64,000 nucleotides of DNA from Globisporangium splendens (taxonomy: Eukaryota > Oomycota > Peronosporomycetes > Pythiales > Pythiaceae): positions 223,105-287,104 of the forward strand of contig VFIW01000059.1 in assembly GCA_006386115.1 (NCBI GenBank), written 5' to 3'. The translations under genes and the position numbers were made by a program. Under the pieces are notes generated by a model, which saw only the letters and a program-made list of their open reading frames with translations, was not told the origin of the DNA and ran no database searches. How positions within the stretch are numbered: position 1 is the stretch's first letter; each line of letters opens with the position of its first letter. Positions 19,281 through 64,000 of the stretch are shown in pieces.

Positions 19281-19282
19281 GT

Positions 19283-26725: not shown

Positions 26726-27793
26726 ATGAAGCGACCAAGTGACCAAGTGAACCGTGAAGAACGTCCGTCGTCCAAGCGACAGCAGACAGCTCCAGAACTC
26801 TTCGACATTTCTCCCATTCTGAAGAAGAAGTGGGAGCTCGAGTTCTACAAGGAGCGGTTCTTCAGTTGGCGTCAGATCAACGATCGCGATGATCCGAACC
26901 AACACATCGCAGCCCAGAGAGACTCATGGCGAACATTTGTTCGTCTTGAGAATGAGAACAAGATGGAGCGTCTTCTTCGTCGTGGCAATGCTCGTGCCGA
27001 AAGAAGAACTCTCGCTGACGACAGAGCGAACCGTAGCTCTGGTCGTCGTAGTGTCGCCCCTGGCGACGCTACAAGCAGTTCTCATAGCTGCGGACCACGT
27101 CGGGAACATCAGACTCCAATGTCTGACGAGGTTCCCACGTGTCCGAGCTCGGTGGATATCCACGCCACCGAACTCTGTAGAAGCGTTGATGGTTCAACTG
27201 CTCCTTTCCTCGACGATGAGTCGGTCGATCTTCATGATCAACAATCGACTCAACCACCCAGCGATGCTCTCCCTGAGAGTCTAACAACGGGGGTGGGGCT
27301 GAACGAGAAAACGATTGAGCGACTCTGGAAGTGGAAGAGTGCTCATCGTGGGCAAATCGAGGCTTTGCAGCAGCGTTGTTCGACACTTGAGGAACGCTGC
27401 GAGAGTCTCGAGAACCTTGTCGCCGATCATGAGTCGAAGATCGACGTCCTGACAGAAGGTTCTGCCCAGTGTTCGGCTTTGGAGTCCCGTTACGAGGAAC
27501 GGTTCCAACAGGTTCAGGACGAACTTGTTCGACTCCAGAAGAACGAGAAGTCTCGTGAGTTGGCTCACGATCGCCTGTTGCGCTCTGTGGAAGAGGCAGG
27601 TTCGGCTCTCGAGGTACTTCGTGGCGAGTACCATTCTCGTCTTCAAGCGTTGGAGGCAGTGAAGGACCAATCCTTCGACGTCCTGCAACTCCTGTACGCC
27701 GAGAAGAATCTCCAGAGCGATGAGCTGTTTGCTCTTCGCAATCAAGTGGAGAGGCTTCACGATCAGCTCGATCGTTTGCGGAAGATCTCGTAG
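26726..27793 (+). CDS. Antisense gene of element C, coiled-coil protein
   Basis: 355 aa from ATG 26726, exactly 77 bp inside the LTR, as in elements B and E. Basic N-terminus (MKRPSDQVNREERPSSKRQ), an aromatic motif (FYKERFFSWRQI) and a Ser/Asp-rich middle. From about residue 205 there is a long coiled coil ending QVERLHDQLDRLRKIS. The last 725 bp (27069-27793) are antisense to the end of pol C. In the final 69 residues it matches the element B copy at 50 positions (hand count), while the opposing pol linker matches at only 32 of 73. This suggests selection on the antisense protein. Family and function are unknown; a regulator, RNA-binding or particle protein are all possible. Confidence 0.7.
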   Translation: MKRPSDQVNREERPSSKRQQTAPELFDISPILKKKWELEFYKERFFSWRQINDRDDPNQHIAAQRDSWRTFVRLENENKMERLLRRGNARAERRTLADDRANRSSGRRSVAPGDATSSSHSCGPRREHQTPMSDEVPTCPSSVDIHATELCRSVDGSTAPFLDDESVDLHDQQSTQPPSDALPESLTTGVGLNEKTIERLWKWKSAHRGQIEALQQRCSTLEERCESLENLVADHESKIDVLTEGSAQCSALESRYEERFQQVQDELVRLQKNEKSRELAHDRLLRSVEEAGSALEVLRGEYHSRLQALEAVKDQSFDVLQLLYAEKNLQSDELFALRNQVERLHDQLDRLRKIS

Positions 27794-30700
27794 GATCCGC
27801 AGATCCACTTGGAAGGTAAGGCTTTAGTCTACCCACATAAAATGTCGGGTGTAGACGCACGCGTGTAGGTATGTCTAGCGTGTATGCATCCCCATTGCAT
27901 TTAACTACCCTGAACGGTCCGGTGAACCTTGGCAGAAGCTTGGAGCTTCCCAAGTTGGACACTGCATGTTCAGGCAGGTTCGCCGTGCTAAGTAATACAA
28001 GATCATTGATCTTATAAACTTGCTTGTTCTTCCTTCCGCTCTTGTCTGCTTGTTCCTTTTGCAGATCCTGAGCCTTCGCGATTGCGTCTCGAACAAACCT
28101 CACAACGGCTTGTCTCCTCACGATAAAGTCATCGACTTGCTGCCCTTCACGACCCGTTAGGTCGTCGAGGGGTTTCATCGAGTCAAAATTGGCTTTCAAC
28201 TCGGAAGCAGCATTCAGGTCGTAAGACGACTTCGGCTTGTTACCATGAGCCGGAGTCCCTCCCCCACTTAAGGTAGAGACCTCACCCATTATGGAAGCAG
28301 GCACTCGAGGATGAATGCCATAGTTCACATAAAAGGGAGAGTGACCTGTCGAGACATGCGTGGAGTTGTTCAACGCAAACTCGGCAAGAGGGAGAAACTC
28401 ACTCCACTCTTTGAAAGACGTTGCGTAGCTGCGCAACACGTCTTCGAGGACACGATTCACTCGTTCTGTTTGACCGTCCGTTTCAGGGTGTGCCGCTGTT
28501 GACATGGACAACTTGGTGTCCAGAAGTCCGAACAGTGCACGCCAGAACTTGGACGTGAAACGGGTGTCACGGTCAGACACGATCTCGACTGGTAGTTCGT
28601 GCAGACGGAATACGACGTCTACAAAGACCTTGGCAGTCTTCTCAGCAGAGATCTTGTCCGAAACAGGCGCAAGATGAACCATCTTGCTGAATCGGTCCAC
28701 AAACACAAGGATGCCATTGCGTCCATGTGTGTCTCTTGGAAGTCCGAATATGAAATCCATACTCACAGACTTCCAACTATCCGATGGGACAGCCAATGAA
28801 CGAAGTGGTGCCTGCGTGGAACCAGAGGGTTTCACTCGTTGGCAGATCTCGCAAGTCCTCACATACTTGCGAACCCACTTGTACATGTGTGGCCAGTAGT
28901 AATCCCGGGAAAGACTGAGAAACGTTTTCTCACGTCCGAGATGGCCACCCGAAGGATTGTCATGGTACTCATACAAGAGTCGATGACGCAGACCTTCGTC
29001 GTTGGGAACAACAACCCTTGCTGTATCCCCTTGTTCGACCGCATAGTACAACAACCTATTGTGTACTCGGAAGCGGTGAACTCGCGATCTTGTGCGCGAC
29101 GGAAGACCTTGCAGTGCTTTGTCGGAAGGGTCCTTGAAGTACTTCAACAAGTCCCGACATGTTTCGTCAGACTTGTACCCTTCGACGATCTCTTCTCGCA
29201 CTGTAGTCGCAGCTCGCACCGCGATCGCTTGAACATCTTCACAGAGTCGACACGCTCCATCCGTGTCCTCACTCTTGGTCTTCGGATCGTAATCCGGACG
29301 TCTTGACAGCGCATCGGCTAAGATGTTCGTCTTGCCTGGCTTGTAGTGTACAACAAAGTTGTACTCTGCAAAGAAGGAGAACCATCTCGCCATTCTTTGC
29401 GACAAATGAGGAGTCTTTACTGCCGTACGCAGAGATGCGTGATCAGTGTAGATAGCAAAGCGTTCCTCGCCAAGCAGATACACACGGAACTTGACCAAAG
29501 AATACTTCATCGCCAGAAGTTCCTTGTCATGAACTGGGTAGTTCCGCTCTGCGGGTCGGAGTTGTCGTGACTGATACGACACAACTCGCTCATGACCCTC
29601 ATCATCGTGTTGCATCAACGCGCAACCGATGGCATAGTCGCTCGCATCGCAGACGACGTGGAACGGCTTGTCGTGGTTTGGCAGAGCCAAGACAGGAGCT
29701 TCTCGAAGACTCCTCTTGACTTCTTCGAACGCCGTCTGATGGTCTTTCGACCACTTCCACTCAACGTCTTTCTTCAAGAGTTGTGTGAGGGGTTGCACCA
29801 ACGCTGCATAATTGCGCGTGTACTTGTGCAAGTAGTTGGCTAAACCCAACCATTGTCGCAGCTGTTTGACATTCTGAGGCACTGGCCAATCGTCAATAGC
29901 TTTGACCTTCTCCAGATCGACTCGAACACCGCTCTTGCCCACAAAACAACCGAGAACAGGGATCTCGGGGGCGAAGAACATGCACTTCTTCAAGTTTGCG
30001 TAGAGTTTATTCTCACACATGACCTGGAAAACTTGACGAAGATGATCGAGATGAACATCGACATCAGACTTCCCATTCGCGGCCTTACTATGAACGAAGA
30101 TGTCGTCAAAGTAACTTGGTGCAAATGTTCGCAGAGGACGAAGAACGTTCGTGACCATTCGATTGAAGGTCGCAGGAGCATTCTTCAGTCCCTGTGGCAT
30201 CACTAACCATTCCCACAACATACCACTCGGGGTACTCACTGCGGTTAGTGGGACATCGTCTTCGCGCATTCGAATCTGATAGAACCCATCTTTCAGATCG
30301 ACGGCACTGAAGACGGTGCTGCCAACCATTCCATCAAGGATCATGTCCTTGCGTGGAACCGGAGTCTGGGCCGGAATTGTCGCGTCGTTCAGCTTGTTGA
30401 AAGCATGAACAATGCGCCAACCTCCAGTTGCCTTCTTCACGCAGAAAGTGGGGCTGCAATGCGGAGACTTGCTCTCCCGCACATGACCAGCCTTAGCACG
30501 TTGTGCAAAGAACTCGTCGATTGCCTCGACTTGTTCCTTTGGCAACGGCCACTGTCTTGTGATGCAGTATTTCGTGCCAGGAAGTACATCAATCTCATGA
30601 CGAATGCCTCTGTCGAATGGCAATTCGTCCGGCACCTTGTCAGGGAAGATGTCTTCATATTCCCTGGTAAGCGCATACACGGGGTTCTTCTTGAGGGCGT

Positions 30701-31607
30701 CCCACGACTGCTCCTCGAACCTTTCCTTCCGTGTCTTTTCGTCCAACACACCTGCATCCGCACTTGATGCTGTGTTGACGAAGCCTTCGTCGACCATTCC
30801 AACGATCACACACACCTGCGCAATATCGCCTCTCGCTAGGCTGCGCTCCAGTGTCTTCTTGCTCATCGGCGGCAAGGAAATCAACTCTTGGACTGAACTT
30901 GGAGGATTTTCAATCTTCACGTGACGGATTACATCCACGTCACCTTCTTCATTGTAGACCGCGATATTCACAAACTCGCTTGGAATGTCTTGTGCTTGGA
31001 CACTCCCTTCGTCATCACCACTTGTACCTTGATCAGGGGAACTCAAAACTCTTGGCGAAAAACTTCTCTTGCTGGTCTTCTTGTCTTGGGGAGGGTGTCT
31101 GTTCCTCTTCCATTCACTCTTGTTAACGCCATCGCGAACCTTCTCGTCGTCGATGGCAAAGGAGACAGTCTTTTTCTGGCGCCTGACTGCTCCACCTTCG
31201 TTCGTCGTCTTCAAAATGGGTACCACTTGTGAACATGGGGGGCCATCGCACACCGCAATATCACAAGGGCCATCTGGGATCTCTTCCACAGATGTATACA
31301 CCCATACTACTTCATCCGTTGTTGTGCAGCACAAGTCAACATCGCGTGACTTGCCAACGGAGATCTTCATATTCATCCGGTCAATGCTAGGTTGATAACG
31401 CTTCAACCATGGCATCCCCAGGATGATATCAAACTTGTCATCGAGGTCGAGTAAAATGAACTCGTCTTCACCTCGGAAATCTTCACACTTGATTGCCAAG
31501 CGCACCACGCGCTTCGGCATCTTCACAGTTGACCCATTTGCCAACCGGACAATCATCATCTTTTCTTCATTCGCATCAGGCACGAAGACACCATGCTGAT
31601 TGATCAT
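27069..31607 (-). pseudogene. pol: Pol of element C (frame broken in protease region)
   Basis: The open frame of 1512 codons starts just after the protease active site. The active-site region lies in another frame upstream (to 31604) and reads VDTSASNNF in place of the VDTGAS of element B, so the catalytic Gly is lost and a frameshift follows it. Reverse transcriptase (SYFDDIFVHS), RNase H (TDHASLRTA intact), integrase (DDE residues present) and chromodomain are complete. As a unit it is probably inactive because of the protease defect and the damaged gag. Confidence 0.85.
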
Positions 31608-32988: not shown

Positions 32989-33608
32989 TGTAAGAGGGCG
33001 CTGTCCAAACATCCCTCACACACGGCACACACGCTTGTGCCAGAGGAAGCGATCTCCCGACTTGGAGGGAGGAACGAAGACTTGAGGGCTTGGAGGAAAA
33101 TTTGCAACTGAATTGAAAATGGTTATGGTTCCTGTCGCTACTTGCTAATGAACCCCAAGGGACCCTACAGGTTTTATAGCTAAAACCTAAACATGCACAA
33201 TAAAACCTATGAATATGATATATAAAACCTTGGGTACACTGAGGTTGAACCTGCGGGATCTTCGAGAAGCTTGAACTTCAAGTCTTGTATAAAATACCTG
33301 CAAAGTGAATGGCTCGCGCCACTCGCTCCAGGTGGCAGAGACACGTCGGTCTCGTCACCAGTGCAGTTTCCCAAGCAGGAACCATCACTCAGTACTTGAT
33401 TAGTACATGGATGTCATTACTCTGTACTGATTAGTACATGAGAACAACATTCTGCACTGATCAGCACAGAGAACACTCGTGACGTCATCGAATGACGTCA
33501 CACGTGCATGTGGGGACTGTCTTACTGTAATCCCTTTGTTATTTGTGTCTCCACAATGCACACTTAGTGGTGTTGCCTGTAATGGCCATTTTAAAACCAT
33601 CCATTACA
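32989..33608 (-). repeat. LTR of element C (5' LTR, type 1)
   Basis: It starts TGTAAGAGGGCGCTG. The far end is shortened and rearranged compared with 26010-26649 and merges with the next, oppositely oriented LTR through the shared near-palindrome 33578-33608 (TGTAATGG...CCATTACA). Confidence 0.8.
33480..33506. promoter_or_regulatory. Paired CRE-like palindromes plus CACGTG in LTR
   Basis: TGACGTCA at 33480-33487 and 33493-33500, followed directly by CACGTG at 33501-33506. The octamers have the same 13-bp spacing as in the type-2 LTRs. Confidence 0.65.
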
Positions 33609-34231
33609 TGAAGGTGGATCTGTTCCCAGATCTAGTGTGTCACACACCACCTTCAGCGTGCATCGTGGAGACACAAATAACAAAGGGATTACAGTAAGAC
33701 AGTCCCCACATGCACGTGTGGCGTCATCCGATGAGGTCACAAAAGTTCTCTGTGCTGATCAGTGCAGAATGTTGTTCTCATGTACTAATCAGTACTGAGC
33801 GATGACATCCATGTACTAATCAAGTACTGAGTGATGGTTCCTGCTTGGGAAACTGGACTGGCGACGAGACCGACGTGTCTCTGCCACCTGGAGTGAGTGG
33901 TGCGAGTCGATCACTTTGCAGGGATTTTAAATAAGACTTGAAGTTCAAGCTTCTAGAAGATCCCGTAGGTTCAACCTCAGTGTACCCAAGGTTTTATATA
34001 TCATATTCATAGGTTTTATTGTGTATGTTTAGGTTTTAGTTATAAAACGTGTAGGATCCCTTGGGGTTCATTAGTAAGTAGCGACAGGAACCATAACCAT
34101 TTTCAATTCAGTTACAAATTTTCCTCCAAGCCCTCAAGTCTTCTTCCTCCCTCCAAGTCGGGAGATCGCTTCCTCTGGCACAAGCGTGTGTGCCGTGTTT
34201 GAGGGACTGTTGTTAAGAGCGCCCTCTTACA
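33578..34231 (+). repeat. Solo-type LTR in plus orientation, inverted against the LTR of element C
   Basis: It reads TGTAATGG...CTCTTACA on the plus strand, the reverse complement of the type-1 LTRs. No internal region or primer binding site follows; it is directly joined to the cut pol of element D at 34232. With 32989-33577 it forms a head-to-head inverted repeat with arms of about 600 bp. Confidence 0.85.
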
Positions 34232-37702: not shown

Positions 37703-39470
37703 ATGAGCGAGAGCGCAGTGCGAGATTTGAAGACCGAAGCGATGGCCACGACCATGGGCGGCGAGGACGCCATGGCGCTGGACGCCGTGCTGGCGTTCGT
37801 AGACGACTTCTCCGTGAGCGACGCGGACGCGCTGGCGTCGCCCCGCGAGCCCTTCGCGTCGCATTGTGGTGGTAATGACAACGACGACGAGCTCCTGGTG
37901 GAGCTGCTGCTCCCACTGGACGAACGCGACCCGAGCGATGCGATGGTCCCGTTTGAGCAGCAGCCTCCCAATGCCGTGGAAGACGACGGCGGACTGTGGA
38001 GCGAGGTGAGCACGAGCAACAGCGATGCTGGGTCACCGCTTGGCGCGTGTGCCCTTGTCGTCGCTCCCTCGTTTTCGCCGTCATCGCCGCTGCAGCGACA
38101 GCAGCAAGACAGGCAACTTGTGTCGGCGGCCAAGAGAATGCGGACCAAGAAGAAGCGCGCGCTGACGTCCAACCCGAACAAGGCGCGCGATGAGCGACGA
38201 GACGAACTCATCTACTTGCGCAACAAAGTCGTGGAGCTGACCGAGAAGCTGGACGCCATGAAAGCAGAAAAGTCTAACTCCATCAACGATGATGGAGAAG
38301 AGCTACTGGATGAGGGCGACCAATATGCTACAGCTTCGGAGGATGGCCAAACGATGGTTTCGCTTTCTCATTCTCAGCGTCGGCCGCACCAGAAGCTCCA
38401 TCGTGCGGTGTGTGGCGTCTGGGAAGACATTGCGCGGCGCCAAAGCGAAGCACGCGCACGGGCCGAACGAGAAAACATTCGACTACGACTCGTGCTGGAA
38501 GATCAACTCAAGGTCGCGAAGAGCTGGGAGAGAATGCTGCATCGCAGAGCTGCCACCCAGGTCAGTACTTGTGCACATCACTTTGCTCTCGTATCACATG
38601 TAACGTTTGGTTTAACCTTGTTACTACAACATTTTACAGGACTTGGCCAGATGCATCGACGGCGCACAACTGCATCACAAGTACGTCACGACAATAGAGC
38701 GCTCGGATGTCGAGATTTTCGAGGATCTGCTGGCGGGGATTGACCGAGCGTACACGGAGGTCGACGCCGTGCTTGAAGCAGCGGGGCTGGCGCACGTCGA
38801 GACGCCGTTCAACGATGCGCGCATTTTCTCAGTTGGCTCGAGAGGCAACATGTCGCTCGAGATTTGCTCGAGCAAGCTGCTGCCCTTTGACTTGCACTCC
38901 ACAGGGACAGCTGTGTGGCACCATTATTTGTTTGGAAAGCAGAAGATCCCATCGCGGTTCTACGATGTCAAGTTCACAAAGGCGAGTTTCACAAGCTGGT
39001 GACTGGCTGCGTCAGTGTTTGACTAAGTTTTGCTTTCTCATTGCTCTCTGTAGAATGCCGACGTCACGGAAGATGCGATCGTGGAGAATTTCAATTTAGA
39101 GCTTCACGCGAAAAACACGACAGCGTATCTGCGCGTGAAAAAAGCGCTGCGGCGGTACGTGGAAGAGGATCGCATCGTGATCGTGTTCCGAACCGTGTTC
39201 AACCCGGTTGAGCTGGACGACGAACCTATGTCAGGCGTGTGCTTCCGTAACTCGGGGTACATCGTCGTCAAACGACCGAAGACGATCCCTGGGACGTTTT
39301 CGTTGCTTCAAATGTTCTACGAGTACACGCCGATCGTGGGCAACGACCACCCGAAAGTCGGCGCGATGACGGAGTTTATGATGCGTGCGACCGAGGCGAA
39401 TTTCGCGTCGAGCCACCAACTGATTGAGAACGTGCTGCTCGCGCAAGCGATGAACAAGTTGGGGGCGTGA
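37703..39470 (+). CDS. bZIP-like / M96-family-type protein, paralogue 3 (3 exons)
   Basis: Proposed exons are 37703-38560, 38640-38981 and 39054-39470, about 538 aa, phase 0. An in-frame ATG at 37742 (MATTMGGEDAM) is an alternative start. Exon 1 has the basic segment NPNKARDERRDELIYLRNKVVELTEKL near residues 156-182 and AERENIRLRLVLEDQLKVAK. Exon 2 has DVEIFEDLLAGIDRAYTEVDAV and LPFDLHSTGTAVWHH. Exon 3 has RRYVEEDRIVIVFRTVF and LIENVLLAQA. Intron 2 must use a GC donor (AAAG|GCGAGT) because no GT fits; reading through would stop after seven residues. It is the closest relative of the relic at 7121-7560. It is separated from paralogue 2 by the retroelement stack. Confidence 0.85.
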
Positions 39471-42618: not shown

Positions 42619-44299
42619 ATGACCGAAGGTGACGACGACGCCGTGCTGCAGGCGATGCTCGCGTTCGTGGACGAGTACGACGCGGGAGCTGCCGCGGAAG
42701 AGCTGCGCGGAGGTCAACAACAGCAGCAGCAGCAACGCCAGCTTGGAGACCGATCGCATCGCAAGGATGGTCTCACATTGTCTCTTGAGCCCCGACTCAG
42801 CGAGGAGCTGCGTGCTGTTGACGGCGTCTTGGTGGATGAGCACACTCTACACTCGCTGATCAGTGACGAAGATGCGCCTCCCTCGGACACAGGTTGCCAG
42901 CCTTCGTTCACGTCGCCATTGCGACAAGGTGGCTATAGTGATGAGACGGCGATGCAGGCTCGAGACGAGCCGAAGAAGAACAAGAAGCCGGGGAACCCGA
43001 ACAAGGCCCGAGACGAGCGCCGAGATGAGATCCTGTATCTGCGCAAGAAGGTGTCGGAGCTGGAGGTTCAGCTAGATAGCGTCAAGCGGAAACGACCGCG
43101 CGTTGAAAGCGGGATAGTAGAACAGTCGCACTCGGCACCTTCGCCACCGTTACAGCAAGAGACCGCAATAGTAGAGCATCAACGACAAGCTGTTCATCCT
43201 GCCGTAGTGGAAGTGTGGAAAGCTATTGCCAACCGCCAGAGCGACGCGCGCACGCAGGCTGAGCGAGAGAACATCCGCTTGAAGCTCGTGCTCGAGCAGC
43301 AGATCAAGCTCGCAAAGAGCCTGGAGAAGCTGCTGAGAAACAAATCGTCAACAAAGGTGAGCTGCATCATCAGTGGGATGAGGATGCGATCTTTTGCATA
43401 TGGCACTTATTATATGTATTATGTGTGTGTGTGCTAATTTGTTACCAGGACGCGGAGAAATGTGTCCCTGATCGTCGCCTTTACGGTCTCTACACCTCGA
43501 TGGCGACGGAGCAAAGCGATGCTGAAATATTTGACGACCTCATATCGGGTCTCGACCAATCGTATGCCCAAGTCGACTCTGTCTTTCAAGGAAACGGACT
43601 TGCAAGCAGGGAAACGGAGCTCAGCGATGCGCGGATGCGCTTTGACGCGTCCTCAGGCATGTGCCTCGAGATTTTCGCCAACAAAGTGCTGCCGTTTGGT
43701 ATGCATGCGGTCGCGAATACTGCGTGGCAGCATTTCATCTTTGGGAAGCAGCGTACGCCGTCGCGATTCTATGACTACATCTCCAGCGTACCCGTACGTG
43801 CTATGTGATGTGTACAGGGTATTCAGACAGAGCCTTTCGCCTGTTGCTGGCATTGAGTACTTACTCTCTTTATTTTGTGATGTGAGCGCAGCGTGCGGAC
43901 ACGACGGATGATACTATTGTCGAAAACTTCAACATGGAGCTTCATGCGAAGAACACGAGCGGGTACTTCCGTGTTAAGCAAGTGTTTCGACGCTACGTGG
44001 AGGAAACGCGCGTTGTGTTTGTGCTGCGCACGGTCTTCTTCCCAGTGACAGTGGGCGACGACCGGATGACTGACGTGTGCTTTCGCGACACCGGGTATAT
44101 CGTGGTCAAGCGCGCGACGAAGGTGCCTGGGGACAACTTCTCGCTTCTGCAAACGAGCTACAACTATACGTCATTGGTAGGTGACGACCACCCGAAAGTC
44201 GGCGTCGTCACGGACTTCATGCTGCGTGCGACCGAGGCGAATATCGTGGCGAGCCACCAAATGATCGAGAACGTGTTGCTACTCGCACACTCGCAATGA
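42619..44299 (+). CDS. bZIP-like / M96-family-type protein, paralogue 5 (3 exons)
   Basis: Exons 42619-43356, 43449-43793 and 43892-44299, about 496 aa. Exon 2 could instead end at 43787; GTACGT at 43794 is the better donor but adds two residues. Exon 1 is shorter than in the other members: an acidic start, a Gln run (about residues 34-41), basic segment NPNKARDERRDEILYLRKKVSELEVQL near residue 127 and AERENIRLKLVLEQQIKLAK. Exons 2 and 3: DAEIFDDLISGLDQSYAQVDSVF, LPFGMHAVANTAWQHF, HQMIENVLLL. A 266-bp tract of exon 2 is almost identical to paralogue 6. Confidence 0.83.
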
Positions 44300-44956: not shown

Positions 44957-46715
44957 ATGTCGACCGAAAGGGAAACGACGGCCGAAGGCGACGACGCCGT
45001 GCTGCGAGCGACGTTCGCGTTCTTGGACGCGTTCCCAGTGACCCCGCCGTCCGAGTGGCGCGAGAACCACGCGGTCGCTGCGGTCGCGTCTCCGCTTCAG
45101 CAGCGACGATATGGAGACCAGGAGCACGACGCAAGTCTCACGTTGCCAATTGACCACGAACCGCGAGCTCATCCCCACGTCTTAATCGATGAGAGCACTC
45201 TCCAGTCCCTGGTTGGAAATGCGAGTGGTGGAGCTGGGATCGCTCCTGATACAGGACATGCGCCATTATTGCCCTCGTCGCCATCGCAACCGCTAGTAGG
45301 ATGTGGCGTTGACGCGGTCTCCGCGATGCAGGTTCCCGAGCCAAAAAAGAAGAAGAAGCCAAGGTCGTGGAACCCAAACAAAGCCCGGAATGAGCGCAAA
45401 GATGAGATCCTGTATCTGCGCAAGAAGGCATCCGAGCTGGAGATTCAACTCGATGACATCAAGCGAAGGCGACCAGAGACCGGGAGCTTCATCGAGTCGT
45501 CACACTCTCTCCAGGACGTTTCCGCGATCGCAGAACGTGGCATGCAACACAGAAAGACGGAGATTCATCCTGCTATCTTGGGAGTGTGGAAAGGTATCGT
45601 CAGCCGCCAGAGCGTCGCTCGCACGCAGGCTGAGCGAGAGAACGTTCGCTTGAAACTCGTGCTCGAACAACAGCTCAAACTCGCGAAAAGCCTGGAGGAA
45701 ATGCTGAAACACAAATCGTCGACGCAGGTGAGCCGCCTTCCTGAGATTGCATGCAGGGATGTATTTCACGACCGCGAGTATGGCATTTGGGTGCGTTTGT
45801 TGATCAGGACGTGGAGCAATGTGTCATGGATAGACGCTTTTACAGTTTGTACTCATTGAACACAACGAAACATGCCGATGCTGAAATATTTGACGACCTC
45901 ATATCGGGTCTCGACCAATCGTATGCCCAAGTCGACTCTGTCTTTCAAGGAAACGGACTTGCAAGCAGGGAAACGGAGCTCAGCGATGCGCGGATGCGCT
46001 TTGACGCGTCCTCAGACATGTGCCTCGAGATTTTCGCCAACAAAGTGCTGCCGTTTGGTATGCATGCGGTCGCGAATGCTGCGTGGCAGCATTTCATCTT
46101 TGGGAAGCAGCGTACGCCGTCGCGATTCTATGACTACATCTTCTCGTCGGTACGCGTTCTTTTCAGTTTCTTCGCTTGCAGTTGCTGGTTCGGTTGACTT
46201 TAACACGATGTGCTTACTTTACGCAGCATACTGGCGCAACAGACGACACGATCGTCGAAAATTTCAACATGGAGCTTCATGCGAAGAACACGAGCGGGTA
46301 CTTCCGTGTTAAGCAAGTGTTTCGCCGCTACGTGGAGGAAACACGCATCGTGATCGTGTCCCGCTCGATCTTTTTCCCTGTGCAAGTGGCGGGCGTGGCG
46401 ATGACCGATGTGTGTTTTCGTAGCACAGCGTATGTTGTAGTCAAGCGTCCACTAAAGACGACGATGAAGATGCAACCCGAACTCGACTGCTCGCTGCTGC
46501 AAACGAGCTACAACTACACGTCGCTGGTCGGCGACGACCACCCGAAAGTCGGCGTCGTCACGGACTTTATGCTGCGCGCGACCGAGGCGAACATCCGAGC
46601 GCGCCACCAAATGATCGAGAACGTGCTGCTGCTTTCAAACTCGCAATCAAAAAGTGGGTTTTTACCAGGAGATGGATTCGATGCCTGCAGGTGTCCGTCA
46701 GGAGAGAGTCGATAA
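44957..46715 (+). CDS. bZIP-like / M96-family-type protein, paralogue 6 (3 exons)
   Basis: Exons 44957-45727, 45808-46149 and 46227-46715, about 533 aa. Start MSTERETTAEGDDAVL aligns with paralogue 5. Exon 1 has the basic segment NPNKARNERKDEILYLRKKASELEIQL near residue 138 (R-to-K change in the basic part) and AERENVRLKLVLEQQLKLAK. Exon 2 is nearly identical to that of paralogue 5. Exon 3 has a short insertion (KTTMKMQPELD) and a C-terminal extension of about 25 residues beyond the usual IENVLLL end. Intron 2 has a GT-AG pair at 46150/46226. Confidence 0.83.
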
Positions 46716-47091: not shown

Positions 47092-48872
47092 ATGGACGCG
47101 AACCACGCAGAGCAGAGCGCGGTGCTGGCGGCGACACTCGCGTTTGTCGACGCCTTCGAGTCGCCGCGCAGTGACGAAGAGCACGCTTCGCCCGTCGACG
47201 ACGACGCGCAGCAGCCACGACGCAGTAGCGACGCCACGGCGGAGCGAACGGAGGAGGAGCTGATGGTCGAGCTGCTGCTCCCCCTCGAGGACGAAGAAGT
47301 GTGGACGCCGGACGACGGAGTGGAGGCTGCAGATGCTGGAGCTTCAAGAGAAAGTTGTAGTCTACGGGACGAAGCTGTGCTTTCAACTAGTCCAGTATCA
47401 AGCGAGCAGTCGTTCGTATCGCCTTCAACGGAGCTGCATTCGCAGCCACACCAGCCTCAGCAGCCGGCGCGCCATTTGGCGCCAAAGCCAGCGTTGACAC
47501 AAAAGAAGAAGAAGCGGTCGCTTTCGTGGAACCCGAATAGAGCGCGCGATGAACGCAGGGACGAACTTGTGTATCTGCGCGGCAAAGTCGTCGAGTTGAA
47601 TGCGAAACTGGACGAGATGCGCGCCAAGACACAGCGTCGACTCGACGAGGAAGCGTCCTCGTTGCTGCCAGTGCCGGGAGATCAAGAGTGCGAGTACTTG
47701 ACCGAGGAAGAGTCGATTCTGCACATGAGCAGTGCGTTCACGCATCCTGGTGAAAAAATCTTACACCTTCAACAGCAGCCACAACCAGAGCCACAGCAGC
47801 AACACCCCACTTTGCGCGGAGTCTGGCGGGAGATTGCGATCCGGCAAAACCGAGAGCGCGAAAGAGCGGAACGCGAGAACATCCGCTTGAAACTCGTGCT
47901 CGAAGACCAGCTCAAAATCGCCAAAAGCTGGGAAAAGCTGCTGCAGCGGAAAGCGACGACTCAGGTACGAGACTGACCACGCCAAATGGCATTGTTGTGG
48001 ATCCCCTTATTGAACATTTTACTGTCTAGGAAATGGAGAAATTGATTGTCGGAAAACGCCGACATCACAAGTACCCACCAACAGCGGATCGCACGGACGC
48101 AGAGATCTTTGAAGACCTCTTGACTGGCATTGACAAAGCGTATGCCAATATGGAGGCAGTCTTTACCGCAAATGGTCTCGCCAATTTGGAAGGTGCATAC
48201 AATGATGCGCGTATCCGATCCGACCGATCCAGAGGCATTATGTACCTGGAGATCTGTTCGAGCCGTGTGCTGCCGTTCGACGTGCACTCAACTGGTACTG
48301 CAGCATGGAATCACTTTGTGTATGGTCGACAAAAAGTGCCCGCTCGGTACTACGATTTTACGTTCACAAAGGTATGAGAATGCGCTCTGTTAGCTGTGCT
48401 AAAGTGTATCATATTTGAGTAGCTGACGTTGACTGGACCATTTTGCTAGAATGTGGATGTGACAGAAGACACATTCGTCGAGAGTTTCAATCTGGAGCTT
48501 CACGCTAAGAGCACGGCTGCGCATCTTCGCGTGAAAAAAGCGATGCGGCGGTATGTGGAAGAAAATCGCATCGTGATCGTGTTTCGAACGATTTTCTATC
48601 AGGTGGAACTCGCGGACGAGCCGTTGTCGGGTGTGTGTTTCCGTGTCACGGGGTACATCGTCGTGAAGCGACCGACAACTATCCCAGGCAGCTTTTCCTT
48701 GCTGCAGATATGCTACATTTACACGCCGATCGTGGGGACAGACCATCCAAAAGTAGGTGCGATGACCGAGTTCTTGTTGCGGACAACAGAAGCGAATCTC
48801 ACGACGAGTCATCAGTTAATCGAGAACGTGCTGCTGGAGCAGGCAGCCAAGCAAAAAGTTGACATGGAGTGA
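47092..48872 (+). CDS. bZIP-like / M96-family-type protein, paralogue 7 (3 exons)
   Basis: Exons 47092-47964, 48030-48371 and 48450-48872, about 545 aa. Exon 1: acidic N-terminus with an ELMVELLLPLEDEE motif shared with other members, basic segment NPNRARDERRDELVYLRGKVVELNAKL near residue 147, a Gln/Pro-rich spacer (QQPQPEPQQQ) and AERENIRLKLVLEDQLKIAK. Exon 2: DAEIFEDLLTGIDKAYANMEAVF and LPFDVHSTGTAAWNHF. Exon 3: RRYVEENRIVIVFRTIF and LIENVLLEQ. Introns are 65 and 78 bp, the shortest total in the family here. Confidence 0.87.
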
Positions 48873-49334: not shown

Positions 49335-51147
49335 ATGGCAGCAGCAGACGAAGGACAAGACGCAGCAGCGCGCGACGGTTTTCACGCAGCGCTCGCGCTC
49401 GCAGACGAGATCCTGGCGAGCGCACCCATTGACGGCGAGTCTGCCGAGCTTCTGCCTTCACTTGCGCTTAACGGCGACGTCGAAGACGCCGACGCCGAGT
49501 CGTTGCGTGAGCTGCTGCTCCCGCTGAAAGACGGGGCAGACTCGCTGTCGGGGCTGAGCGCGGCCTCTGCGCATGAGAATGGAACGCTCGTTTGGTCGGA
49601 GCACGCATCGGCAGCAGAAACAGCACGAGAGCCGCAGCCGTCCACTCAGTCTCCTCCAGCGCATCCAAAGCAGGAGCAAGCGCTTCAGGAAACGCGGGGA
49701 AAGGCGGCGACAACGACAGCGTCTACAGCCAAAAAGAAGCGAGTGCGCACGTGGAATCCCAACCGAGCGCGCGACGAACGTCGAAACGAGATGCTTTATT
49801 TACGCAAGAGAGTCGATGATCTGACGAAGCAACTGAACGAGATCATCAATGCCGACGAGCGCAACAAGAAGATCAAGACCGACGACGGCAGTGCGTCAAC
49901 GGAACTGGCGTGTTACAACCTGTCCACGGAGGAAGAGTCGATGCTGCGCATGAGCTCGGCGCTTCGGCAGCCGACTGAGCACGCTCTAGCCACTCGACAC
50001 AAACCAGGCGAACCGCATCCAGACGTAAAGTATGTGTGGCGCGATATCGCGACGCGCCAAAAGCAGGCGCGCATGCACGCAGAACGAGAGAACGTTCGCT
50101 TGCGGCTCGTGCTCGAAGATCAGCTCAAAATCGCGAAAAGCTGGGAGAAAATGCTGCACCGCAAGCAGGCCACACACGTAGGCACCTCTGTTTTCTATGA
50201 GGATTGCATTCTCTCGCTGCGGCTGAAGCTGATCACTTTGCTTGTTTGCGGTTACTTTGAGCAGGTTATGGGGAATTTCATTCGCGATAACCGGCGCCAT
50301 CCCGAGTATCTCCAGACACCTGAGCGCACCGAGGCCGAGATCTTTGAGGATCTCTTAACCGGCATCGACAGTTCGTACGCCGAGCTCGATGCCGCCTTTG
50401 CTGCAAACGGCCTGGACAAGATAGAGGACGTCTACAGCGATGCGCGCATTCGGACCGACCGCTCGACTGGGGTCATTTACCTAGAGATTTGTTCCAGCAA
50501 AGTTCTACCTTTCGACATTCACTCGACCGGCACTGCAGCATGGAACCATTTCGTGTTTGGGCGGCAACGAGTACCCTCTCGCTTCTACGACTTTAACTTA
50601 TTTGCAAAGGTGAGAAGCAGTCTGAGTTTGTCTTGTCGAGGTTTGCTGTCTGCGCATGGGCTAATGCATCAAGAGATGCACTTGGCTTTGCATGCAGACT
50701 GTGGATGTGACTGAGGACACTATTGTGGAGAGCTTCAACCTGGAGCTCCACGCGAAGAGCACAGCGGCGCACCTGTGTGTGAGGAAAGCAATGCGGCGCT
50801 TTGTGGAAGAAGATCGGATCGTGATCGTGTTTCGAACCATTTTCTATCCTGTCGAGCTCGCCGAGGAACCGATGTCGGGCATGTGCTTTCTCGTCACAGG
50901 GTACATTGTCATCAAGCGGCCAAAAACCATTCCAGGCAACTACTCGTTGTTGCAAATGTGCTCAAAGTATACGCCGACGCTGGGCACGGACCACCCGAAA
51001 GCTGGCGTGATGACAGAGCTATTGTTGCGAACTGCCGAGGCGAATTTTGCAACGAGTCACCAGCTCATTGAGAACGTGCTACTTGAGCAAGCCATGAAGA
51101 AGGAGAACGATAAAGACAAGGTTGAAGAGGAAGCAAACTTTCATTAA
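49335..51147 (+). CDS. bZIP-like / M96-family-type protein, paralogue 8 (3 exons)
   Basis: Exons 49335-50177, 50265-50609 and 50698-51147, about 545 aa. Start MAAADEGQDAAARDGF is the first in-frame ATG. Exon 1: acidic part, basic segment NPNRARDERRNEMLYLRKRVDDLTKQL near residue 138, AERENVRLRLVLEDQLKIAK. Exon 2: EAEIFEDLLTGIDSSYAELDAAF and LPFDIHSTGTAAWNHF. Exon 3: RRFVEEDRIVIVFRTIF, LIENVLLEQAMKK and an acidic Lys/Glu tail. Intron 1 (50178-50264) is 87 bp, divisible by three and without stops, so an unspliced transcript would encode 29 extra residues. Splicing is favoured because every paralogue has an intron there. Confidence 0.87.
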
Positions 51148-56982: not shown

Positions 56983-57592
56983 TGTAATGGGCTAAGGCTG
57001 CCATTACATGCAAGGTGGCTCTTTGTGTGTGTCACACACCACCTTGTGAAAGTGCATTGTGGGTGCGAAGATATTGGGTGAAGCACATAAAAGTGATCCC
57101 CACATGCACAGGTGACGTCATCGTCTGACGTCAGAGCAATCTGTGTCTGAGTTGAGTGTTGGTCGCTCGCAATCATTGAGATTCGGCGTGATTACGCACA
57201 ACAGTACTCGAAACATGTGAATGATGGTTCCTACTTGGGAAACAACACTGGTGATGAGACCGACGTGTCTCTACCACCTGAAGTGAGTGACGTGAGCCAA
57301 TCACTTCGCAGGGAATCTTCGCGGTACTTCAAGTTCAAGTTTCTCGAAGATCCCGTAGGTTCAACCTCAGTGTACCCAAGGTTTTATATATCAGGTTCAT
57401 AGGTTTTATTTCTGCATGTTTAAGTTTTATGCATAAAACCTCTAGGAAGCCCTAGTAGTGTTTTACATGTAGTGTCAGGAACCATAAGCTCATTTCAATT
57501 CAGTTGCATTTTTGCCAAGTTCCCCTCAAGTCTTCCTCTTCAAGCGCAAGCGTGCGTGCTGTGTTTGAGGCTGTCTCGGATAGCCTCTTACA
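56983..57592 (+). repeat. LTR of element E (5' LTR, type 2)
   Basis: 610 bp, TGTAATGGGC...CCTCTTACA. Contains the CRE-like pair at 57113-57120 and 57126-57133 and a TATATA box near 57385. Confidence 0.92.
57113..57133. promoter_or_regulatory. Paired CRE-like palindromes in 5' LTR of element E
   Basis: TGACGTCA at 57113-57120 and 57126-57133, in the U3-side part of the LTR, about 260 bp before a TATATA sequence. Confidence 0.7.
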
Positions 57593-57700: not shown

Positions 57701-58744
57701 ATGGAAGGGATGGAGACGCCGATGGGTACGATGCCTGCAGAGACCGTGGAGCTGACGAATGAGCATTTCCCTCATTTGTCTAGCCACGAGTGGGCAGCCC
57801 TCGAGCGTATGCGAGCAGTCATCGGTGAGGCAGCTGCAATCAGCTTGCTGAGATCAGCGTCACCGGATGAGCAGAGGAATGCGGCTACGAGCTTCATGCA
57901 TCACGAGATCATGAACACTCATCGACAGCCTGCAACTCCTGTCACGACGATGAGAGTGGCGCCTCTGAAGCTCGATGTATCTCCGTACCGTGGCGGAGAA
58001 AACGAACCTCTAGCGAGATGGTTCGTTGAGTTGGATGCAGCTATCACTGCAAGGCAACTACGGGACCCAATGCAGCAAGTGTTGTTTGCGATGTCAAACC
58101 TTGCGGGTCGAGCCAAGAGTTGGGCGTATGGGAAGCGATTGGCGGAGCCACATTGCTTCTACGACCTGGACGACTTCAAACGAGGGCTGAAGAGAGCTTT
58201 TGAGCCTCCGCAGAGCGAATTTCGAGCTCGTGCTGAGTTCTTAAAGCTTCGTCAGGGTAGATACGACCTACACTCGTACGCTCAACGAGCACGATACCTT
58301 GTGTCAAGTATCGTGAATGAGCCGATTGATGTCTCAACGCAAGTTGTGACATTCATGGCAGGACTCAATGACGGTCCGATTCGGAACCAGCTGTTCCGCG
58401 AGTATCCGAAGACGCTGGGTGAAACCATCGAGCGAGCGATGCAAGAAGAATTCAGCATCAAGCAAGCCAAGTTCAACGGTTTCGGCCCTCGTCCTGTTCG
58501 ACAACACGCAGTCACACACGACGGTCCAGAACCGATGGACATCTCGTATGCCGATGCGACTACAAGCAGATACCCACGCAATGACGGGAAGTGTTTCCGT
58601 TGTGGCAAGCCCGGTCACATCGCGAGAAATTGCAAGGTGTCCTTGCCAAGCCAGCAAGCGACACACGGTTCGCAATCGAATCGACCAGGCAGAGGCCGAC
58701 GATTCGAGCGTTCCCAACAGCCAAAAAACGGGAACGACCAGTAG
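57701..58744 (+). CDS. gag: Gag of element E
   Basis: 347 aa from ATG 57701 (MEGMETPMGTMPAETVELTN). Capsid-like core at about residues 90-260 (ARWFVELDAAITARQLRDP, NLAGRAKSWAYGKRL, SYAQRARYLVSSI) and a CCHC knuckle (CFRCGKPGHIARNC near residue 300), then a basic tail. Nearly identical to element D gag. The pol frame overlaps its 3' end. Confidence 0.93.
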   Translation: MEGMETPMGTMPAETVELTNEHFPHLSSHEWAALERMRAVIGEAAAISLLRSASPDEQRNAATSFMHHEIMNTHRQPATPVTTMRVAPLKLDVSPYRGGENEPLARWFVELDAAITARQLRDPMQQVLFAMSNLAGRAKSWAYGKRLAEPHCFYDLDDFKRGLKRAFEPPQSEFRARAEFLKLRQGRYDLHSYAQRARYLVSSIVNEPIDVSTQVVTFMAGLNDGPIRNQLFREYPKTLGETIERAMQEEFSIKQAKFNGFGPRPVRQHAVTHDGPEPMDISYADATTSRYPRNDGKCFRCGKPGHIARNCKVSLPSQQATHGSQSNRPGRGRRFERSQQPKNGNDQ

Positions 58745-61700
58745 GAGCGGGGCTCCCTACTGGGCGAACAAAGAGTTCTGTGAATGTCGTGGAAGCGCAG
58801 AACTCTTGCCCCGATGTGCGCAATGCACATGAAGTTTCCGCGAATAGATGTGAGCGTGTCGAGCAAGGGCCAGCCTTGATAGTCCACAAGGTTAAGGTAG
58901 ATGGTTATTCAGAACCTCTACGGGCTCTTGTAGACACTGGTGCGTCGAACAATTTTGTCCGCACACAAGTGGTGAGAAGGCAAGGTTTGGACCTGCCTAA
59001 CTCAAACAAGGAAATGATCGTTCGCTTGGCGAATGGATCGAAAGTGATGATGCCTAAGCGCGTGTTGCGTATGGCAATCGAATGTGATGATTTCCGAGGT
59101 GAAGACGAGTTTATAGCACTCGACCTCGATGACAAGTTTGATCTGATTCTGGGAATGCCCTGGTTGAGAAGGTACCAACCGAGCATTGACTGGAAGAAGA
59201 AGAAGATCAGCGTCGACAAGCAAGTCGACGAAGACCTCGGCTGCCTGGCAGCAAGAGAGGTAATTTGGGCATATACCTCTGTGGAAGATGTGTCTAATGA
59301 GAGTCAGGCGTGCGATGGCCCCTCACACTCAAATGACAAGCCCGTGAAGACCACTGGAGGTGGAGTAGTCAGGCGCCAGAAAAAGACTGCTCCTGTAGCC
59401 AAGAGCGATGTGGAGTTCCGCTCTGGCAGGGTTAAAGAAGACAAGAAGACCGACGAAGAAGAACGAAGATCTGCAAGCGTCCCTGATCAAGACACAAGAG
59501 AAGCAGAAGATGAAGTGAAGAGACAAGAACAAGCCACTTCAAGCGAATATGTGAACGTCGCAGTCTACAATGAAGAAGGTGACAGCCAGATAGTGCGTCA
59601 CGTACAAGTTGAAAATCCTCCAAGTCTGGCTCAAGAATTGATTTCCTTGCCGTTGATGAGCAAGAAGACGCTCAAGCGTAGCCTGGCGAAAGGCGAAATT
59701 TCGCAAATTTGTGCGATCGTCGATGAAGCTGCCGACGATGTCATCAACACTGCGGAAGTGTTAGATGAGAAGACACGGAAGGAAAGGTTTGACGAGCAGT
59801 CGTGGGACGCTCTAAAGACAAACCCCGTGTATGGACTTGTCAAGGAATATGCGGACATATTCCCAGACAAAGTGCCTGACGAATTGCCGCAAGACAGAGG
59901 CATTCGTCACGAGATAGATGTACTTCCGGGAACGAAGTACTGTATCACGAGGCAATGGCCGCTACCGAAGGAACAAGTCGATGCGATCGACGAGTTCTTC
60001 GCGCAGCGACAGAAGGCTGGCCATGTGCGCGAGAGCAAGTCTCCGCACTGTAGTCCCACCTTCTGTGTAAAGAAGCCACAGGTGGTTGGCGTATTGTTCA
60101 TGCATTCAACAAATTGAATGATGCGACCATACCTGCTCAGACCCCAGTTCCACGTAAGGATATGATCCTTGATGGAATGGTCGGCAGCACTGTCTTTAGC
60201 GCGGTCGATCTGAAAGATGGATTCTATCAGATTCGTATGCGTGAGAGCGATGTACCATTTACAGCAGTAAGCACCCCTAGTGGTATGCTGTGGGAATGGA
60301 TGGTGATGCCACAAGGTCTGAAGAACGCACCAGCAACTTTCAACAGAATGGTCACGAATGTACTTCGTCCATTGAGAGAGTTTGCACCGAGCTACTTGGA
60401 CGATATCTTCGTCCACAGTAAGGCTTTGGGAAAGGAGAAGGATGTTGATGTTCATCTTGAACATCTCCGTCAAGTTTTTCAGGTTATGCGTGAAAACAAA
60501 TTATACGCTAACTTGAAGAAATGCATCTTCTTCGCCCCTGAGATCCCTGTACTCGGTTGCTTTGTTGGCAAGAATGGCGTTCGAGCTGACCCTGAGAAAG
60601 TCAAGGCTATTGACGATTGGCCTACTCCTCAGAATGTCAAACAACTACGCCAGTGGTTGGGTTTGGCGAACTACCTGCACAAATACACACGCAATTACGC
60701 AGCATTAGTGCAGCCTCTCACGAGTCTCTTGAAAAAGGACAATGAGTGGGAGTGGTCTGAGGAACATCAGGCAGCGTTTGCTGAAGCGAAGAAGAGCTTA
60801 AGAGAAGCTCCTGTCCTAGCTCTCGCAGATCATGAGGAGCCGTTCCATGTAGTCTGCGATGCGAGCGATTATGCCATCGGGTGTGCACTGATGCAACACG
60901 ATGGTGAGGGCAAAGAAAGAGTTGTGTCGCATCAATCACGACAACCCAGGCCCGCAGAAAGGAACTATCCGGTCCATAACAAAGAACTTTTGGCCATGAA
61001 GTATGCATTGGCAAAGTTCCGAGTCTATTTGCTTGGTGAGGAGCAGTTCGCTATTTACACTGATCACGCATCACTGCGGACAGCTGCAAAGACGCCTCAC
61101 CTATCGCAAAGAATGGCAAGATGGCTTTCCTTCTTTGCTGAGTATAACTTTGTTGTACACTACAAGCCCGGCAAGCCCAACATACTTGCTGACGCTTTGT
61201 CAAGACGTCCGGACTATGATCCGAAGAACAAGAGTGACGGCACGAACGGAGCGTGCCGACTCTGTGAAGACGTCAGCGCGATTGCTACGGGAGTGACAAG
61301 CACAATCCAAGAAGAAATCACTGAGGGCTACAAGCAAGACGAAGCATGCCAAGAACTGATCAAGTATTTCAAGAATCCCTCAGAGAAGGCACTCCAAAAC
61401 CTCCCACCAAGAGCAAGATCGCGTGTTCACCGTTACAGCATGCACAATGAGCTGCTGTACTATACGGTTGACGAAGGGGATCCAGCGAGGATCGTTGTCC
61501 CCAACGACGAAGGTCTGCGTCATCGACTCTTGTACGAGTATCATGGCAGTCCTTCGAGTGGTCATCTCGGACGTGAGAAAACGTTTCTCAACTTGTCTCG
61601 AGATTACTACTGGCCTCACATGTACAAGTGGGTTCGCAAGTATGTGCGTACTTGCGAAGTGTGCCAACGAGTGAAGCCCTCTGGCTCTACTCAGGCTCCA

Positions 61701-63416
61701 CTTCGTTCATTACATGTCCCGTCGGACAGTTGGAAGTCTGTGAGTATGGATTTCATATTCGGGCTTCCAAGGGACAAACATGGCAGGAATGGTATCCTGG
61801 TGTTTGTGGACCGATTCAGTAAGATGGTGCATCTTGCGCCTGTTTCGGACAAGATCTCTGCTGAGAAGACTGCCAAGGTCTTTGTAGACGTCATATTCCG
61901 TCTACACGGACTACCAGTCGAGATCGTGTCTGACCGTGACACCCGTTTCACGTCCAAGTTCTGGCGTGCACTGTTCGGACTTCTGGACACCAAGTTGTCC
62001 ATGTCAACAGCGGCACGCCCTGAAACGGACGGTCAAACAGAGCGAGTGAATCGCGTCCTTGAAGACGTGTTGCGCAGCTACGCAACGTCTTTCAAAGAGT
62101 GGAGTGAGTTTCTCCCTCTTGCCGAGTTTGCGTTGAACAACTCCACGCATGTCTCGGCGGGTCACTCTCCATTTTATGTGAACTATGGCATTCATCCTCG
62201 AGTGCCTGCTTCCATAATGGGTGAGGTCTCTACCTTAAGTGGGGGAGGGACTCTGGCTCATGGTAACAAACCGAAGTCGTCTTACGACCTGAATGCTGCT
62301 TCCGAGTTAAAAGCGAATTTTGACTCGGTGAAACCCCTCGACGACCTAACGGGTCGTGAAGGGCAGCAAGTCGATGACTTTATCGTGAGGAGACAAGCCG
62401 TTGTGAGGTTTGTTCGAGACGCAATCGCGAAGGCTCAGGATCTGCAAAAGGAACAAGCAGACAAGAGCGGAAGGAAGAGCAAGCAAGTATATAAGATCAA
62501 TGATCATGTATTGCTTAGTACGGCTAACTTACCTGAACATGTAGTGTCTAACTTGGGGAGTTCGAAACTTCTGCCAAGATATATTGGGCCGTTCAGGGTA
62601 GTTAAATGCAATGGGGATGCATACACGCTAGACATACCTACACGCATGCGACTACACCCTACGTTCTACGTAGGTCGACTAAAGCCTTACCTTCCAAGTG
62701 GGTCAGCGAACCCTATAGAGCCCTTGACGGATGATCAAGTTGATCCTGAAGTCGCTCCACCAGCTCGCGAAGAGTCTGTAACTCATCGCCATGGAGCTTC
62801 TTCTCGGCATAAAGGCGCTGAAGCACATCAAAGGACTCGTCCTTTATTGCCTCCAACGCGAGAAGGCGACCATGATACTCCTTCCGAAGTATCTCAAGAG
62901 AAACCCCTGCCTCTTCCACAGAGCGCAGTAGACGTTCGCGATACGCATCACGAGCTTTCTCAGCCTTCTGGAGTCGTTCAAGCTCGGCTTGAATCTTCTC
63001 GAACCTTTGTTCGAAATGTGACTCCATTGCCGAACGCTGGGCAAGACCATCGAAGAGCAAGTCGATCTTCGACTCCTGCTCCTTCAACCGGTCTTCGAGT
63101 ACCGCGTTGCGAACTTCAAGAGCCTCGATCTGAGCACGGTGAGCACTCTTCCACTTCCAGAGTCGCTCAATCGTTTTCGCGTTCAGCCCCACCTCCTCTG
63201 ATCGATCATCAGGGAGAGCGTCGTTGGATCGTTGAGTCGATAGTCGATCATGAGGATCGATCGACTCGTCGTCGAGGAGAGAAGTCGTTGAACCGTCAAC
63301 GCTTCTACAGAGTACGGTGGCTTGGCTATCCACCGGACTCAGACACGTGGGAACCTCGAGAGACTCTTCAGTCTGATGTTCCCGACGTGGTTCACAGTTA
63401 CGAACAGAGCTTGTAG
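58591..63416 (+). pseudogene. pol: Pol of element E, single-base frameshift in the RT
   Basis: The first frame runs to 60117 and contains the protease (LVDTGASNNFV near residue 113 of the frame) and the start of the reverse transcriptase, up to SPTFCVKK. At about 60074 one G is missing compared with elements B and C. The reading then continues in the next frame from 60114 to 63416 with SYLDDIFVHS, RNase H (VVCDASDYAIGC, TDHASLRTA), integrase (VSMDFIFGL, VSDRDTRFT, ETDGQTERVN; the preceding His is Arg) and the chromodomain (RWIVESIVDHED...VRWLGYPPDSDTWEP). One indel is the only clear defect, so the copy is recent or the base is a sequencing error. Confidence 0.9.
58723..58763 (+). promoter_or_regulatory. 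-1 ribosomal frameshift site, element E
   Basis: Heptamer A AAA AAC (58723-58729) in the gag zero frame, an 8-nt spacer, then a stem CCAGTAGGAGC (58738-58748) with GCTCCCTACTGG (58752-58763), one bulged C. The gag stop TAG lies in the 5' arm. Confidence 0.82.
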
Positions 63417-63741
63417 TGCTCTCGCGAGCACTAGAACGACGAGAGCCAAGCTCTTTATGGTCGTTCTCGAGCGTGCCTCCTAGGTTCCCTAGCAAACGCT
63501 CGACAAGATGCTCGTTCTCGAGTCGGACAAACGTCTTCCACGACTCGAGCTTCGCTGTGCTGGACTGGCCTGGATCGTCGCTGCCGGACATCTTGCGCCA
63601 AAGGAAGAACAACTCCTTGTAGAACCGACGTCCTCCACGCTTCTTGCGAATAGCGGAGATGTCGTACAAGCCGGGAGTCGTCCGCTGCCGCTTCGGCTCG
63701 GGCTGTTCTTCGCGCTTCACTTGGTCGCTTGATCGCTTCAT
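62713..63741 (-). CDS. Antisense gene of element E, coiled-coil protein
   Basis: 342 aa from ATG 63741, exactly 77 bp inside the 3' LTR, reading against the element. The frame is open further upstream into the LTR (to 63921), but the ATG matches elements B and C. N-terminus MKRSSDQVKREEQPEPKRQR, motif RFYKELFFLWRKM, a Ser/Asp-rich middle and a C-terminal coiled coil (LEDRLKEQESKIDLL, FEKIQAELERLQKAEK, LRELVERLQDQLD). The last 704 bp overlap the 3' end of pol, including the chromodomain. Intact, unlike pol of the same element. Family unknown; see findings. Confidence 0.7.
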   Translation of the reverse strand: MKRSSDQVKREEQPEPKRQRTTPGLYDISAIRKKRGGRRFYKELFFLWRKMSGSDDPGQSSTAKLESWKTFVRLENEHLVERLLGNLGGTLENDHKELGSRRSSARESTTSSVRNCEPRREHQTEESLEVPTCLSPVDSQATVLCRSVDGSTTSLLDDESIDPHDRLSTQRSNDALPDDRSEEVGLNAKTIERLWKWKSAHRAQIEALEVRNAVLEDRLKEQESKIDLLFDGLAQRSAMESHFEQRFEKIQAELERLQKAEKARDAYRERLLRSVEEAGVSLEILRKEYHGRLLALEAIKDESFDVLQRLYAEKKLHGDELQTLRELVERLQDQLDHPSRAL

Positions 63742-63800
63742 GGTCAATTGGAAAGTGAGAGCGGGTACCTCTTCCGAAAGAAGTAAAGTCCGTGATGGAA

Positions 63801-63817: not shown

Positions 63818-64000
63818 TGTAATGGGCTAAGGCTGCCATTACATGCAAGGTGGCTCTTTGTGTGTGTCACACACCACCTTGTGAAAGTGCATTGTGGGTG
63901 CGAAGATATTGGGTGAAGCACATAAAAGTGATCCCCACATGCACAGGTGACGTCATCGTCTGACGTCAGAGCAATCTGTGTCTGAGTGTTGAGTGTTTGG
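63818..64000 (+). repeat. 3' LTR of element E (partial, window edge)
   Basis: Starts TGTAATGGGCTAAGG and follows the 5' LTR closely, including the CRE-like pair (63948-63955 and 63961-63968), until the window ends. Confidence 0.92.

Follow-up and report, generated by a model that had tools for sequence, protein, structure and literature searches.

The Ty3/gypsy elements B, C and E, which form one family (F1) in the window (the whole 64,000-nucleotide stretch of Globisporangium splendens DNA analysed here), carry a protein-coding gene on the strand opposite the 3' end of pol. This antisense frame is under purifying selection, beyond what chance would produce. Where the two genes overlap, constraint is divided between them: pol is kept at its chromodomain, and the antisense gene is kept at the pol linker. 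We put at about three in four the probability of the overall reading, a protein-coding antisense gene of a chromodomain Ty3/gypsy element with a proposed nuclear coiled-coil accessory or regulatory product acting in trans; the nuclear-regulator step, taken alone, is tentative. The earlier note had proposed that oomycete elements carry a conserved coding gene antisense to the 3' end of pol, and both dN/dS and codon permutations bear this out. The host genus is Globisporangium and not Phytophthora, and the genome holding the window comprises 53.3 Mb in 195 contigs. The published draft genome of G. splendens is also 53.3 Mb, and its depositors supplied AUGUSTUS with hints drawn from earlier transcriptome data (PMC7163027).

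Element E extends from 56983 to the contig end, which lies within its 3' LTR. The start of the 5' LTR (56983-57152, forward strand) is identical to the corresponding stretch of the 3' LTR (63818-64000, forward, ended by the contig end), and the latter opens at 63818 with TGTAATGG, immediately preceded by a polypurine tract. Between the LTRs lie gag (57701-58744, forward; Pfam Retrotrans_gag and zf-CCHC) and a pol split by a frameshift into a first part (58591-60117, forward) and a second part (60114-63416, forward), which encodes RT, RNase H, integrase, SH3, a linker and a chromodomain. The linker (62691-63224, forward) runs from SH3_Tf2-1 to the chromodomain (63225-63407, forward; Pfam PF00385, residues 1038-1098) and evolves as antisense codons. 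The pol of C occupies 27069-31607 on the reverse strand. With gag, RT, RNase H, integrase after RNase H, a C-terminal chromodomain and LTRs, these are Ty3/gypsy elements with a chromodomain. The window also holds a further repeat family with seven copies (851-1023, 8628-8800, 38397-38569, 43193-43365, 45564-45736, 47801-47973 and 50014-50186), six of which are 61-83% identical to the reference copy. At 33076-34143, two 489-nt LTR-like arms lie in inverted order, 94% complementary and 90 nt apart; they are two LTR copies facing each other.

The antisense gene of E (62713-63741, reverse strand) is an ATG-started frame of 342 codons with relatives elsewhere in the same genome, and that of C (26726-27793, forward) has 355 codons. 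In B the first 17 codons are open (11235-11285, forward) before an insertion cuts the frame, which resumes at 19818-20814 (forward). Its overlap with pol measures 704 nt (E) or 725 nt (C) and takes up some two thirds of the antisense frame; in E this region consists of the chromodomain and the linker before it. The distance from the end of the antisense frame to the end of the SH3_Tf2-1 domain is 23 nt in E and again 23 nt in C. The earlier note had described these frames, the extent of the overlap with the chromodomain inside it, the interruption of copy B and an E frame that is intact although its pol is split, and all of this held. It had also placed the start 77 nt inside the 3' LTR: the 77-nt spacing recurs in E (63818/63741), C (26649/26726) and B (11158/11235), but the ATG lies on the internal side of the LTR edge. 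Near-identical F1 antisense proteins are annotated as 'hypothetical protein' in G. splendens.

The relative phase of the two frames places antisense codon position 3 on pol position 2 and antisense position 2 on pol position 3. This arrangement makes for an unusually clean test of selection, for which hundreds of copies are available. We assembled 73 sequences, namely 70 loci together with B, C and E (L001 being E itself), and dropped six: four with early stops (L010, L023, L026 and L035) and two in which pol had a stop at an unexpected position (L032 and L034); 16 representatives under 97% identity were drawn from the remaining 67. Among these, the columns variable at antisense positions 1, 2 and 3 numbered 57, 53 and 76 of 109 outside pol, 64, 58 and 112 of 175 in the linker overlap, and 17, 27 and 17 of 61 in the chromodomain overlap. 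Differences within 32 disjoint sister pairs were distributed over positions 1, 2 and 3 as 78/56/111 outside pol (P 8e-5), 113/117/210 in the linker (P 1e-9) and 16/55/39 in the chromodomain (P 3e-5). Seventeen deduplicated copies that were also listed in the integrase search described below, and had likewise been collected as antisense matches, showed the pattern too, with 43/40/66, 61/51/92 and 13/21/11 variable columns for the same three regions.

The median dN/dS of the antisense frame was 0.29 outside pol, 1.18 in the chromodomain and 0.32 in the linker (116, 94 and 105 of 120 pairs usable) and that of pol was 0.33 in the chromodomain and 1.29 in the linker (119 and 109 of 120 usable), in a simple calculation that ignores the opposite frame, so that values above 1 are no evidence of positive selection. 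Outside pol, antisense dN was below dS in every one of the 116 usable pairs, which is the outcome expected of a coding gene in the comparison that the earlier note had suggested for this part. Only two of the six frames, pol and the antisense gene, are open through the overlap in all 16 representatives; the four others average 4.3 to 15.6 stops. The sense frame that shares the wobble position contains 10-15 stops where the two genes overlap and cannot account for the position pattern. When the synonymous codons of pol were permuted, the antisense strand acquired a mean of 5.9-8.0 stops, against none observed; not one of 5,000 permutations of E, C or L052 lacked stops, and for L036 the fraction without them was 0.0002. 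Drawing synonyms evenly gave mean values of 4.6-6.2 stops and stop-free fractions of 0.0003-0.0037.

Copies of the gene are numerous. Three antisense searches, each listing the best 114-118 of 443-487 candidates, together yielded at least 237 distinct loci in the G. splendens genome, 43 of them with a stop in the match; at least 219 loci reach 1,000 nt or more, and 180 of these 219 are stop-free, all these counts being lower bounds from a sample biased toward intact copies. A second sample, the best 131 of 1,037 candidates, was chosen by integrase to lessen that bias. An antisense match was listed at the expected distance in 89 of the 131 copies, and most of these copies keep the frame (71 stop-free, 18 with a stop). 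Breakage of the antisense frame in the majority of pol-intact copies was thus not seen, with the qualification that antisense stops occur in 18 of the 89 copies, versus integrase stops in 4 of the 89, and that 42 of the 131 have no antisense gene among the matches listed. Eight of those 42 were picked by hand: all retain antisense similarity, and none has the whole frame intact. The similarity is split over two or more frames in five copies (L076-L080), begins at residue 121 in L075 and at residue 28 in L081, and in L074 runs throughout with a longest ATG-started frame of only 180 codons. Four of the eight (L075, L077, L078 and L081) have a continuous pol tail; the tail is shifted in L079 and L080 and badly broken in L076, and in L074 it gives a one-frame match plus a stretch that also matches in another frame. 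At least three copies (L075, L077 and L078) thus have an antisense gene damaged or cut outside pol together with a continuous pol tail.

Codon 73 has changed from CGA to TGA in L010, L023 and L026, and the nearest relatives fetched lack the change. The repeated TGA may reflect a mutational hotspot, gene conversion or shared history; its presence on three different backgrounds indicates that single copies survive loss of the antisense gene. By eye, the antisense genes and pol tails of L031, L032 and L033 look like mosaics of the 95% and 64% groups, which suggests recombination between subfamilies. Relatives of the F1 antisense gene on short contigs from other sources have identities as low as about 40%.

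A second gypsy family, F2, is inserted in B. The F2 element (11284-19817), which the earlier note did not report as a second family, sits within the antisense gene of B. On the reverse strand it comprises a 3' LTR (11284-11821) that is 99.3% identical to its 5' LTR (19280-19817), and a pol (12942-18182; Pfam RT, RNase H, integrase, SH3_Tf2-1 and Chromo) with a chromodomain at 12984-13136 (PF00385, residues 1683-1733). It has an antisense gene of its own (11993-13528, forward; 511 codons, in a frame open from 11837), which overlaps pol by 587 nt, ends 5 nt short of the end of SH3 and stands in the same phase to pol as in F1. Outside pol the codon signal is strong (four copies); between W and L073 we counted 114, 95 and 174 differences at antisense positions 1, 2 and 3 (P 1.6e-6). 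The position signal reverses in the chromodomain overlap (10/17/10), and in the linker the copies are too alike for it to show. Permuting the F2 pol synonyms produced a mean of 4.1 antisense stops and a stop-free fraction of 0.0044. In the genome, 79 F2 antisense genes were among the matches listed, 20 of them with stops, and relatives occur down to 35% identity on short contigs from other sources. A comparison of the F1 and F2 antisense proteins showed no clear relationship, and their N-terminal parts differ.

An initiator-like sequence, TCACTTT (63752-63758, reverse strand), lies 17 nt before the antisense ATG of E. A match to TCAYTYY was found at exactly -17 in 60 of the 62 copies with enough upstream sequence, and it is present in three groups whose flanks differ. 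We scored the region against a 16-nt oomycete core promoter consensus: the site at -19 was the best same-strand match within about 760 nt in all five copies scored, with a score modestly above that of shuffled sequences (P 0.005-0.048 in four of the five). In excerpts of a study of oomycete promoters, the INR element is given as YCAYTYY, the combined motif adds an FPR element (MWTTTNC) two bases after it, and leaders in Phytophthora infestans measure 32-144 nt (PMC3599244). The FPR match beside the F1 motif is partial, the motif is absent upstream of the F2 antisense gene, and the leader it implies is about 15 nt long. Given this short leader and the absence in F2, we regard the F1 motif as a lead to a candidate promoter.

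The structure of the E antisense protein was predicted with AlphaFold2 from 22 sequences; the pTM of 0.30 means that no overall arrangement can be read from the model. Residues 21-88 (63478-63681, reverse strand), outside pol, are predicted to form a small helical domain (pLDDT 74-89, last block 63). Residues 88-178 (63208-63480, reverse), opposite the chromodomain, are predicted to be disordered (pLDDT below 50), and by coordinates the chromodomain itself faces residues 112-173. Residues 179-341 (62719-63207, reverse), opposite the linker, are predicted to form a single long helix or coiled coil (pLDDT 79-98). Taken with the coordinates, this layout suggests that the folded parts of each protein face the unfolded or unconstrained parts of the other. 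The F2 model (pTM 0.29, mean pLDDT 61.7) has its better-predicted part at about 190-304, predicted disorder at 308-404, with the chromodomain opposite 331-382, and a predicted helix at 406-491. The basic N-terminus, the FYKE..FF.WR motif and the long C-terminal helix that the earlier note had described were all found in the F1 protein; its N-terminus includes a bipartite NLS-like stretch, and heptad patterns are present.

The combination of an NLS-like N-terminus, a small helical domain and a long coiled coil is best accommodated by a nuclear, oligomeric accessory protein, and of the roles considered, that of a nuclear coiled-coil accessory or regulatory protein is the likeliest. The gene starts 77 nt internal to the 3' LTR, runs back across the end of pol and stops near the end of the integrase SH3 domain; on this model, its transcription would be driven by a promoter of its own at the 5' end. 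The basic N-terminus would carry the protein into the nucleus, the coiled coil would drive oligomer formation, and the protein would act in trans on the element, in transcription, integration or escape from silencing.

Two other roles for the protein have to be weighed. It may have a structural role or be part of the particle, for example as a scaffold of coiled coils together with gag or as a nucleic-acid chaperone. The predicted helix of about 160 residues would suit such a role, as would the weak PDB matches of the antisense profile, which are largely to coiled coils and include LINE-1 ORF1p; any coiled coil would yield such matches, however, a separate antisense message would be an odd route to a bulk structural protein, and the N-terminus carries the bipartite NLS-like stretch. 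We consider a structural role unlikely. There is a similarly small chance that the protein works against silencing by the host or against one of its restriction factors. In an oomycete, elements of this kind are matched by small RNAs (excerpts of PMC3522703), and different N-terminal parts occupy the same place in two families, as for host-interaction factors. Against this stand pairwise dN/dS values below 1 in both conserved parts, with no sign of an arms race, and the lack of a match to any known family. Neither Pfam nor the PDB comparison yielded a known fold or family that would give the antisense proteins a function.

It is improbable that the antisense RNA, rather than the protein, is what matters, through double-stranded RNA formed with the element transcript that limits or triggers silencing. 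In P. infestans, gypsy elements are matched along their length by small RNAs of both sense and antisense orientation (excerpts of PMC3522703), and excerpts of a paper on plant elements discuss control by antisense RNA (PMC7264820). Selection nevertheless acts on the antisense amino acids, and an RNA role, possible in addition, explains none of that. Hardly credible is a frame kept open merely as a by-product of the codon make-up of pol: GC-rich genomes often have long open frames on the strand opposite a coding sequence, but permuted pol synonyms practically never leave the strand free of stops, the fastest linker sites are second positions of pol and third positions of the antisense gene, and a third of the gene, with its low dN/dS, lies outside pol.

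HBZ of HTLV-1 and ASP of HIV-1 are likewise antisense genes at the 3' end of an LTR element that overlap sense genes. The likeness to them drawn in the earlier note stands in position and ends there: no Pfam family passed its cut-off for the E or C antisense protein and no bZIP family was among their matches at E<=0.1, the F1 start codon lies outside the LTR, no env was seen and the host is a water mould. The HTLV antisense promoter, according to excerpts of PMC7264820, lies in the 3' LTR. Excerpts of two papers on plant elements describe conserved antisense extra ORFs near the 3' LTR of Ty3/gypsy elements (aORF-3R; Grande gene23, RIRE2, Retand and PvRetro13), which are retained in many copies and whose function is given as unknown; Grande GENE23 is nuclear and transcribed from a promoter just upstream (PMC7264820, PMC11963269). 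F1 resembles these elements in having a conserved antisense ORF beside the 3' LTR. It differs in that its gene overlaps pol by 704-725 nt and its element has a chromodomain; the plant ORFs are located in the interval that separates pol from the 3' LTR (2.9-6.6 kb in Retand), Retand belongs to a non-chromovirus lineage with a TRP28 domain in 97% of its clusters, and the word 'overlap' is absent from the available text of both sources (PMC7264820, PMC11963269). For the E and C antisense proteins and 13 F2 proteins, the Pfam matches at E<=0.1 did not include TRP28 (PF04195).

The pol of Chronos, an oomycete gypsy element, ends in a chromodomain, as in F1 and F2, and Chronos and Archon, another such element, both carry a second, plant-type RNase H (excerpts of PMC5348765). 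In contrast, no second RNase H of that type was seen by Pfam in the second pol part of E or in the pol of C and F2, where only RT_RNaseH models matched. The words 'antisense' and 'opposite' are absent from the available text of that oomycete survey (PMC5348765), excerpts of a bdelloid rotifer survey contain nothing on antisense genes (PMC5408684), and no oomycete antisense ORF overlapping pol was found in the literature searched. As far as our searches show, what is new is that the gene overlaps pol, that the two frames divide constraint and that the host is an oomycete.

For the chromodomain gypsy elements of Pythium-like oomycetes, we lean towards a picture in which the long pol linker is kept mainly for the coiled coil encoded on the opposite strand, folded regions face disordered ones, and the layout recurs with unrelated-looking heads, so that the slot would either be ancestral with a swap of the head or have originated two separate times with one and the same phase. 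It is rare for two genes that overlap on opposite strands both to have been shown to be under selection at the protein level, and these elements may serve as a model for how two overlapping reading frames split constraint. The finding adds oomycetes to the plants and retroviruses in which LTR elements have antisense accessory genes, and it means that many of the 'hypothetical proteins' annotated in such a genome would be antisense transposon genes.
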